Shown here in pieces: positions 5,357-8,038 of a stretch of DNA of 37,163 bases. The DNA is from Clostridia bacterium (lineage in GTDB: Bacteria > Bacillota > Clostridia > Tissierellales > Dethiosulfatibacteraceae). The stretch spans positions 1-37,163 of the forward strand of contig JAABRS010000005.1 in the NCBI GenBank assembly GCA_011390775.1, in the 5' to 3' direction. The notes beneath the pieces were generated by a model, which did not search any database, was not told where the DNA came from, and was given only the letters and a program-made list of their open reading frames with translations. The position numbers and the translations under genes were made by a program. Every line of letters starts with the position of its first letter. Position 1 is the first letter of the stretch.

Positions 5357-6067
5357 TTGAGTAAATTAATAAAAAAAACATTTAGTGGGTTAATAGATTT
5401 GATATTTCCAGAAAAAAACTCTTGCCTTGTATGTGGATACTGGGATGAAAGCATTGGAGAAGATTATATATGTAAAGAATGTCTCTATAAATTCAAAAAC
5501 ATAAAGGGTCACAATTGTAAAATATGTTCCAAACCTTTAATTACTTCCGGAGATATATGTATTGAATGCATAGAAACTCCAAAATCTTTTGAAAAAATCT
5601 ATACACCATATAAATACGAAGGATTAATAAGAGATGTAATAAAAGACTATAAATACAAAAATAAACCCTACTATTATAAAATGCTGGGAGAATTATTATA
5701 TAAATATATCAAAGAAATTGATATTGATTTTGACATTATATCTTATGTGCCTCTTCATAAAAACAAAAAGAAGAAAAGAGGATATAATCAGTCTGAACTT
5801 ATGGCTAAATATTTAGGAAAGAAATTAGATATACCATGTGAAAGACTTATTGAAAGAGTAGTAGATACAAAACCTCAAAATCAGTTGAAAAGGGAAGATA
5901 GAGTAAAAAACCTCAAAAATACATTTATGGCTGTAAAAAATTTGCAAAGCCAAAATATTTTAATTGTGGATGATGTATACACAACAGGAACTACTTTAAA
6001 CGAATGTTCGAAATCGCTCTTAAAGGTTGAAGTTGAAAATATTTACGGCTTAACCATCGCTAGATAA
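5357..6067 (+). CDS. comFC: ComFC-type phosphoribosyltransferase-like protein
   Basis: A 236-residue ComF-family protein. The N-terminal zinc-binding part has eight Cys in CxxC pairs (C23/26, C39/42, C54/57, C68/71). The C-terminal PRTase fold carries the PRPP-loop motif ILIVDDVYTTGTTL (about 201-214). In competent bacteria ComFC is needed for transformation together with the helicase ComFA; no comFA is next to it here. It starts at TTG (5357), eight bases after the start of an AGGGGG site, and follows recD2 by nine bases, which suggests one transcript. No terminator is seen after it. Confidence 0.93.
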   Translation: MSKLIKKTFSGLIDLIFPEKNSCLVCGYWDESIGEDYICKECLYKFKNIKGHNCKICSKPLITSGDICIECIETPKSFEKIYTPYKYEGLIRDVIKDYKYKNKPYYYKMLGELLYKYIKEIDIDFDIISYVPLHKNKKKKRGYNQSELMAKYLGKKLDIPCERLIERVVDTKPQNQLKREDRVKNLKNTFMAVKNLQSQNILIVDDVYTTGTTLNECSKSLLKVEVENIYGLTIAR

Positions 6068-6080
6068 AAATTAAAACAAC

Positions 6081-6155
6081 AGGTTGTGGATAACTTCCCC
6101 GGGCTTATCAACAGAAAACACAAAAAAACATAGCTTATCAACAGAGTTGTTAACA
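6081..6155 (+). promoter_or_regulatory. Cluster of DnaA-box-like sites upstream of hpf
   Basis: A perfect consensus DnaA box TTATCCACA lies on the minus strand at 6085-6093. Two identical near-consensus boxes TTATCAACA lie on the plus strand at 6105-6113 and 6135-6143. A weaker fourth copy (two mismatches) is at 6145-6153 on the minus strand. Box starts are spaced 20 and 30 bp, that is, close to whole helical turns. An almost pure A+T stretch (6154-6200) follows. No dnaA or dnaN gene is nearby, so this reads as a regulatory or DnaA-binding cluster rather than a proven origin. Confidence 0.6.
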
Positions 6156-6260
6156 TAATCATTAAAAATAAAAAAATAATTAATATTTTAAATAATTGAT
6201 TAGAAGGCCTAATAAGTGGGTAAACTATTAATAAATAAAATCATGAAAGGGGAAGACATT

Positions 6261-6788
6261 ATGAAAATTGAAATCTACGGAAAAAATGTGAATGTAACGG
6301 ATAGTTTAAAGGACATGGTTGAAAGAAAGTTAGCTAAGCTGGACAAATTCTTCTATAAAGATATGGACGTAAAAGTTGTATTAAGTGTAGAAAAGTTAAG
6401 ACAAATTATAGAAATCACGATACCTTTTGGAGGAACGATAATTAGAGCAGAAGAAGTGACAGATGATATGTATCACTCTATAGATAAAGCAGTAGATGTG
6501 GTGGAAAGACAAATAAGAAGACATAAATCTAAGCTCCAGGATAAAAAACATACTAAGGAAACAATAAGGTTTGAGAATATTGAACCCCTTGATGAAGAAG
6601 AAGATGAAATTAAAATTGTAAAAACTAAAAAGTTTGCAATGAAACCTATGAGTATAGAGGAAGCAGTATTACAAATGGATTTACTAAGACATAATTTCTA
6701 TGTGTTTCTAAATGCAGATACAGAAGAAGTTAATGTAATTTATAAGAGAAAAGATGAACAGGTAGGATTAATAGAACCTGAATTTTAA
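6261..6788 (+). CDS. hpf: Long-form ribosome hibernation promoting factor
   Basis: A 175-residue long HPF. The N-terminal S30AE/YfiA domain (1-100, beginning MKIEIYGKNVNVTDSLKD) binds the 30S decoding region. A charged linker (100-117) leads to the C-terminal dimerisation domain (about 118-175, with KPMSIEEAVLQM and the conserved FLNADTEEVNVIYKR). It pairs ribosomes into inactive 100S dimers in slow growth. I chose ATG 6261 because AAAGGGG lies seven bases upstream; the GTG further up at 6216 has no site. It sits alone behind the DnaA-box cluster and ends at a strong terminator. Confidence 0.95.
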   Translation: MKIEIYGKNVNVTDSLKDMVERKLAKLDKFFYKDMDVKVVLSVEKLRQIIEITIPFGGTIIRAEEVTDDMYHSIDKAVDVVERQIRRHKSKLQDKKHTKETIRFENIEPLDEEEDEIKIVKTKKFAMKPMSIEEAVLQMDLLRHNFYVFLNADTEEVNVIYKRKDEQVGLIEPEF

Positions 6789-6997: not shown

Positions 6998-8038
6998 ATG
7001 ATTCATAGAAAAGGAAATCCATATGGAACCCATAGAGTACTTGAACCAAAAGGAGTTTTACCTCAGCCGGCAAATAAGATTAACAACTACATGGAAATAT
7101 ACGATAATGAGATACTCATAGACGTTCAGACATTAAACATAGACTCGGCTAGTTTTACTCAAATAAAGGATCAAGCAAGGGGAGATGAAGAAAAAATAAA
7201 AATAATCATGAAAAGTATAGTAGAAGAAAGAGGAAAGCATCAGAATCCCGTAACTGGTTCGGGAGGAATGCTTATTGGAACGGTAAAAGAGATAGGAGAT
7301 GCTCTTAAAGACAGAGATCTAAAAGTAGGAGATAAGATAGCTACATTAGTTTCATTATCTTTGACTCCATTAAGAATTGATGAAATTCTCGAAATTAGAA
7401 AAGATATAGACCAGGTAGACATTAATGGTCAAGCTATACTTTTTGAAAGTGGGATATATGCAAAACTACCTGAAGATTTACCTGAAAACTTAGCTCTGTC
7501 AGTACTGGACGTAGCAGGAGCACCGGCACAGACAGCAAAGTTGGTAAAACCAGGGGATACCGTTATGGTGATAGGAGGAGCTGGAAAATCTGGAATGCTG
7601 TGTTTGTACGAAGCTAAAAAAAGAGCAGGCATAACAGGAAAAGTTATTTGTATGACTTATTGGGATACTCCTATAGATAAAATAAAAGAATTAGGATTAG
7701 CTGATGAATTTATCGAAGGAGATGCTACGGATGCAGTATCAGTATATGAGGAAGTATCTAAGGTAACAAATGGAAATTTATGCGATAAGGTTATCAACTG
7801 TGTTAATATGCCAAACTGTGAAATGTCTAGCATATTATCATGTAAAGATAATGGTACAGTATATTTTTTCTCCATGGCAACATCTTTTACCAAAGCTGCA
7901 TTAGGCGCCGAGGGAGTAGGTAAAGACGTTAATATGATTATGGGAAATGGATATACAAAAGATCATGCAGCAATATCTCTTCAAATAATGAGAGATAGCA
8001 AAGAATTAAAAGAACTATATCAAGAAATTTATGCCTGA
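6998..8038 (+). CDS. kdd: L-erythro-3,5-diaminohexanoate dehydrogenase
   Basis: A 346-residue protein recognised by its N-terminal [17 protein letters not shown] stretch, typical of Kdd of anaerobic lysine fermentation. It oxidises L-erythro-3,5-diaminohexanoate to 5-amino-3-oxohexanoate with NAD(P)+. An alcohol-dehydrogenase-like fold carries a Rossmann loop GGAGKSG near residue 190. The ATG lies 5 bases after TAGGAGGT. kal follows 25 bases later on the same transcript. The cleavage enzyme gene kce, often found between or beside these two, is absent here, as are kamA, kamD and kamE, so the pathway must be split over several loci. Confidence 0.92.

Follow-up and report, generated by a model that had tools for sequence, protein, structure and literature searches.

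A cluster of DnaA boxes with fixed spacing upstream of the hibernation-promoting factor gene hpf in Clostridia

DnaA-binding sites outside oriC are well known in Escherichia coli and Bacillus subtilis. According to the available parts of the published reports, DnaA of B. subtilis has six strong non-oriC binding regions (PMC4447404), several of the DnaA-box regions regulate their genes (PMC8203912), and the removal of six DnaA-box clusters results in earlier initiation (PMC5295017). In E. coli, DnaA prefers boxes located 2 or 3 bp apart, and the double box with the 3-bp spacer is preferred in vivo (PMC11317965, available part). Titration of DnaA in E. coli was supported in 2025 (PMC12371093, available part). 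None of the 20 strongest DnaA regions of B. subtilis is located at hpf (PMC4447404), and the available part of the C. difficile origin study makes no mention of hpf (PMC7561715). The terms Clostrid and hpf are absent from the main text of the E. coli titration paper (PMC12371093). In the open-licence literature on DnaA with hpf, hibernation, raiA or Clostridia, no report of a DnaA site at hpf was found.

The window (the whole stretch of 37,163 bases analysed here) contains three exact matches to the DnaA-box word TTATCMACA, and all three are located inside 59 bp, within the 193-bp gap between comFC and hpf. A recount in the window placed the box starts at 6085, 6105 and 6135, 20 and 30 bp apart, exactly as in an earlier sequence-only reading of this DNA. 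The box inventory of that reading was right for the three exact boxes and had overlooked a fourth, degenerate one. The third and fourth boxes form a head-to-tail pair with a 3-bp spacer (a double DnaA box). The features are as follows.

5357–6067, plus strand: comFC-like gene upstream of the gap, double zinc ribbon plus phosphoribosyltransferase
6085–6093, minus strand: exact DnaA box TTATCCACA, perfect, inverted relative to hpf; the box and its 20-bp offset are seen in the genus of the window only
6105–6113, plus strand: exact DnaA box TTATCAACA, outer box of the conserved 30-12 arrangement
6135–6143, plus strand: exact DnaA box TTATCAACA, first half of the double box
6147–6155, plus strand: degenerate DnaA box TTGTTAACA, second half of the double box, identical in the related genome G001
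6144–6200, no strand: A+T-rich stretch (89.5% A+T) between the boxes and the promoter-like motif
6218–6223, plus strand: GGGTAA motif, probable -10 element, corresponding in the window to the GGGTAT motif that precedes hpf in relatives
6261–6788, plus strand: hpf, long hibernation-promoting factor, Pfam S30AE plus C-terminal domain S30AE_C

The stretch at 6144–6200 had been called A+T-only-like, which is a fair description, as its A+T content is attained by just 0.28% of 57-bp windows. The GGGTAT-type motif, preceded by a GTT-rich element, is present upstream of hpf in 26 of 28 regions (own genome and 27 relatives; window 6218–6223, relatives L033–L060). The motif resembles the -10 element of sigma-B-type promoters and may act as one. 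From the boxes to the motif there are 62 bp in the window; over the 19 regions in which both are measurable, this distance varies between 62 and 452 bp. At 6000–6300, no terminator was found, and a single weak sigma-70-like match was no more than expected by chance. An RNA element was rejected, as Rfam gave no match at 5900–6400 even at an E value of 1. The gene after hpf (6998–8038) matches L-erythro-3,5-diaminohexanoate dehydrogenase of lysine fermentation (NF052381).

In shuffled windows, the mean number of TTATCMACA was 1.13, and 11 of 100 shuffles reached three. Thus, the clustering rather than the number of boxes is unusual in the window. The genome-wide count, which had been proposed as a check, gave 105 exact boxes in 2.116 Mb, against 88 for the reversed-pattern control. 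The word is barely enriched, and single boxes therefore mean little. This near equality favours a chance cluster of DnaA-box-like words in A+T-rich DNA. However, for 105 boxes scattered at random over 2.116 Mb, three box starts inside 50 bp are expected with p = 0.00035, and the spacing conserved in relatives, described below, already contradicts a chance origin. We regard the probability of such an origin as negligible. Among the 100 listed of the 105 places, inspected by eye, three stretches of at most 200 bp contain three boxes among the matches listed: upstream of dnaA (contig C193), the hpf cluster (C214) and upstream of an MFS transporter gene (C218).

The absence of dnaA from the neighbourhood was confirmed: the own dnaA is on contig C193, and its upstream region carries two TTATCCACA boxes and one TTATCAACA box. 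Features of a DBC-type site (a non-oriC DnaA-box cluster) are present at hpf, namely at least three close boxes above chance (three exact and a fourth degenerate), a location away from oriC and dnaA, and conservation of the site in relatives. The sequence-only reading had also considered a cryptic or secondary replication origin, in which the boxes and the A+T-rich stretch would form an unwinding site. The 57 bp of 89.5% A+T after the boxes fit such a site. On the other side, dnaA and its boxes are elsewhere, and no TAG/TAA-type DnaA-trio repeat of three or more was detected at 6081–6260. The genome of the window consists of 269 contigs. The GC skew was followed in the complete relative G012 (17 sampled stretches), where it is positive at 100–1,000 kb and stays negative from 1,100 kb onwards. 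The switch is located at dnaA, 381 kb from the hpf cluster. The secondary origin was rejected on the GC skew, the place of dnaA and the missing DnaA-trio, and is considered very improbable.

The contigs of the complete relatives G012 and G021 each begin with dnaA, and the distance from there to the hpf cluster is 381 kb in G012 and 788 kb in G021; among complete relatives, the modules at hpf lie 196–788 kb from dnaA. That neighbouring genes are origin-proximal in Bacillus had been offered as suggestive. For single-chromosome relatives (lengths of G318 and G391 rounded), hpf lies at 0.11–0.50 of the arm in 15 genomes with the module and at 0.07–0.51 in 11 genomes without it or unmatched. Because hpf genes with and without the module span similar arm fractions, all within about half an arm of dnaA, the proximity argument does not discriminate, and the origin distance is no evidence for titration.

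In G012 and G021, the only stretches of at most 200 bp with three exact TTATCCACA boxes are the dnaA, hpf and cwlD regions. The second conserved non-oriC cluster is located beside the spore amidase gene cwlD (TIGR02883), at C1:1922289–1922420 in G012 (L096) and at C1:2957293–2957434 in G021 (L097), and its core pattern occurs in 36 of the 249 genomes of the order. In six of six genomes, this cluster and the one at hpf are on opposite replication arms, almost mirror-symmetrically in two. Mirror symmetry as a rule was rejected: the distances are equal within 5 kb in G012 and G021 only, and are clearly unequal in G215 and G198.

The sequence-only reading had named a lack of conservation in relatives among the outcomes that would refute it; the boxes recur with fixed spacing across the class. 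In the 28 regions, the recurring layout consists of a box, a second box 30 to 32 bp further on, a third at +12, a fourth abutting it at +9, a fifth at +23, and finally an inverted box 25–27 bp further on; not every region has all the elements. In the window, the 30 and 12 offsets are retained, and the abutting box is missing. The family of the window shares the offset of 30 or 31 to the following box. In 138 hpf upstream regions, which include 33 stretches fetched partly for carrying a module, at least three boxes are present in 89, whereas dinucleotide shuffling leaves 2.9 such regions on average. Offset 9 is seen in 67 of the regions, offset 21 in 67 and offset 12 in 56; the commonest shuffle offset averages 0.1. 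Because of the 33 fetched stretches, two sets are given apart. The 12-9 triplet in the hpf sense is present in 14 of the 28 regions and in 26 of 77 named loci (80 loci minus L175, L177 and L212, which have insufficient upstream sequence), and in the antisense in none of either set; the regions are related to one another, so that these counts are not independent events. Named organisms with the 12-9 spacing include Caloranaerobacter, Anaerosalibacter, Caloramator, Vallitalea, Anaerostipes, Catenibacillus and several Lachnospiraceae. The box density over the 80 named loci peaks at 9.29 per kb between -400 and -201 from hpf. It is 3.71 and 2.04 per kb in the flanking bins, and 0.07–1.34 per kb outside -600 to -1. 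No box at all is present in 15 of the 77 named regions, and many hpf-bearing genomes are without the module.

A separate search, made without reference to hpf, looked for the 12-9 core pattern in 249 genomes of the order and allowed at most one mismatch. The core was found in 109 genomes, nearly always once, and the reversed pattern in none. hpf was located in 234 genomes, and placement relative to hpf covers the 96 of 114 core matches with a listed hpf place. Seventy-five of these 96 are situated 80–1165 bp upstream of hpf, every one of them in the hpf direction; the other 21 are elsewhere, 20 of them in family f3. A looser core was found in 97 of 291 genomes drawn over the class Clostridia, and its reversed control in 2. 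Placement covers 91 of these 117 matches: 43, from 15 families, are within 5 kb upstream of hpf, all 43 in its direction, and 48 are away from hpf. According to a hand count from the matches listed, the hpf-linked module is present in 28 family-level groups (15 in the order and 13 more in the class). Different genes precede the module, among them FlgN, ComFC, ArAE exporter, CNNM, VTT, PilZ and SAM methyltransferase genes by Pfam, and others by eye. As the upstream gene changes while hpf stays, linkage to hpf rather than to the place is favoured. Against such linkage, the module is 2.7–3.8 kb from hpf in families f22, f55 and f59, although in one f59 genome the distance is 333 bp; amino-acid transporter genes follow the module in f22 and f59 (by eye).

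Modules were also observed at other genes. Three-box modules are located at tsaD (gcp) in f3 (L128, L129 and L130) and f70 (L226 and L227), at about position 1501 of these loci, and the f3 module lies between tsaD and an ABC-F gene. A strong DnaA region of B. subtilis is located downstream of gcp and ydiF (PMC4447404, available part), and the tsaD locus may be an old shared DnaA site. In f44 (L231, L233 and L235), modules lie between exonuclease-like and mrnC-like genes (by eye), besides the module at hpf.

The 12-bp offset is a good predictor of DnaA binding, because E. coli DnaA prefers gaps of 2–3 bp between boxes, as stated in the available part of the report (PMC11317965). We predict that the hpf module of the relatives is, with high probability, a real DnaA-binding element; for the version in the window the same prediction is made with less confidence, as rather likely. 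The same arrangement at the same gene across many Clostridia probably marks a real control site, and this site may tie dormancy to chromosome replication. The boxes, their clustering, their fixed spacing and orientation, and the linkage to hpf are found across the class; DnaA binding, an effect on hpf and titration are activities that we infer from these sequences. Of the possibilities raised by the sequence-only reading (titration of DnaA, a tie to hpf, or a secondary origin), the DnaA-box cluster itself stands, strengthened by the fixed spacing across the class, and the origin falls. Our preferred reading is a non-oriC DnaA-binding site in the control region of hpf, which would modulate hpf and incidentally titrate DnaA; we judge its chances to be about even.

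According to this proposal, DnaA would bind cooperatively, nucleating at the head-to-tail double box with its 3-bp spacer. In most relatives, the complex would spread over the abutting third box and the outer boxes about 2–3 helical turns away. Positioned 62–452 bp (in the window, 62 bp) upstream of the GGGTAT-type hpf promoter motif, the complex would most likely modulate hpf transcription by the amount or the nucleotide state of DnaA. Ribosome hibernation would thereby respond to the replication status. As several DnaA copies would be bound at an origin-proximal place, the site may also titrate DnaA, as the clusters of B. subtilis do.

For a simple hpf regulator, the spread of the distance to the promoter motif is unusual. 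The modules 2.7–3.8 kb away in f22, f55 and f59, the 48 of 91 class-wide matches that are not at hpf, the hpf genomes without the module, and the genome G004 of the family of the window, which has no DnaA-box cluster at hpf, also speak against hpf control. The module may instead be a pure DnaA sink that is doubled soon after initiation and delays re-initiation, with the hpf neighbourhood inherited and no effect on hpf. The spacing inside the module is constant, but its distance from hpf varies between 80 bp and 3.8 kb, with intervening genes in some families, and similar modules occur at tsaD and the ABC-F gene (f3), tsaD (f70), cwlD and the MFS transporter gene (f1). These features agree with a sink, as does the earlier initiation of B. 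subtilis after removal of its six clusters (PMC5295017, available part). However, the module stays upstream of hpf and oriented with it while the gene on the other side changes. A constant neighbour and orientation should not matter for titration, and they speak against a sink, as does the failure of the origin distance to tell hpf genes that carry the module from those that lack it. Pure titration is considered somewhat doubtful, and hpf control is ranked above it as the main role.

To judge from its boxes, the window carries a reduced, degenerate version of a site that is stronger elsewhere. The copy in the window could be a decaying remnant with no function, even if the site were to work in relatives. 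Most of its boxes have the form TTATCAACA or TTGTTAACA, no abutting third core box is left, the whole cluster is missing in G004, and the family (f1) has a more canonical three-box module upstream of the MFS transporter gene in G002–G006. This 9-12 module is found at L324–L328, and a weaker form is present in G000 (L062:1249–1291, contig C218). On the other hand, between G000 and G001, none of the 36 box positions of the gap differs, compared with 26 of the 157 others (Fisher p = 0.005). TTATCAACA also adjoins dnaA in all four f1 dnaA loci examined. hpf was located in six f1 genomes (not in G006 and G007), and five of them, G000, G001, G002, G003 and G005, keep the 3-bp double box upstream of it. 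A remnant is considered unlikely.

A broader proposal, which we put forward tentatively and with less than even confidence, is that DnaA directly controls hpf across the class Clostridia through a complex of fixed geometry, which would give the replication-initiation machinery a part in setting the threshold of ribosome dormancy. The novelty is the unusually broad conservation and the unexpected gene partner of an otherwise known kind of site: a non-oriC DnaA site is tied here to the same gene, strand and internal spacing across 28 family-level groups. If DnaA acts there, replication initiation would be coupled to ribosome hibernation, a link that we did not find in the open-licence literature, and Clostridia would gain a defined site for testing DnaA titration.

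The raiA RNA (RF03072) resembles the module in that it is located upstream of hpf/raiA in some Clostridia. Of 40 loci scanned, 5 have it upstream of hpf (L150:2553–2754, L297, L299, L301 and L309); in two of these, L150 and L299, the DnaA boxes separate the RNA from hpf. The raiA RNA is an element separate from the DnaA boxes, and none is present in the window. The B. subtilis clusters (near sda/yqeG, ywlC, ywcI/vpr, gcp/ydiF, yydA and trmE) resemble the hpf module in having several intergenic boxes away from oriC. According to the available parts of the reports, such clusters frequently occupy the control region of a gene, which several of them regulate, and jointly they delay initiation (PMC4447404, PMC8203912, PMC5295017). 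The likeness is one of kind, whereas the hpf partner and the fixed 12-9 geometry are features of the Clostridia set. The double DnaA boxes of E. coli (upstream of mutH/DARS2, polA and purH) are likewise head-to-tail with a 3-bp spacer (PMC11317965, available part), whereas the Clostridia module usually adds an abutting third box and outer boxes, and its neighbour is hpf. The E. coli sites datA, DARS1 and DARS2 belong with the hpf module to the class of non-oriC DnaA-box sites, and they control DnaA availability (PMC11317965 and PMC12371093, available parts). datA and DARS act on the nucleotide state of DnaA, and the hpf module is likened to them as a class.
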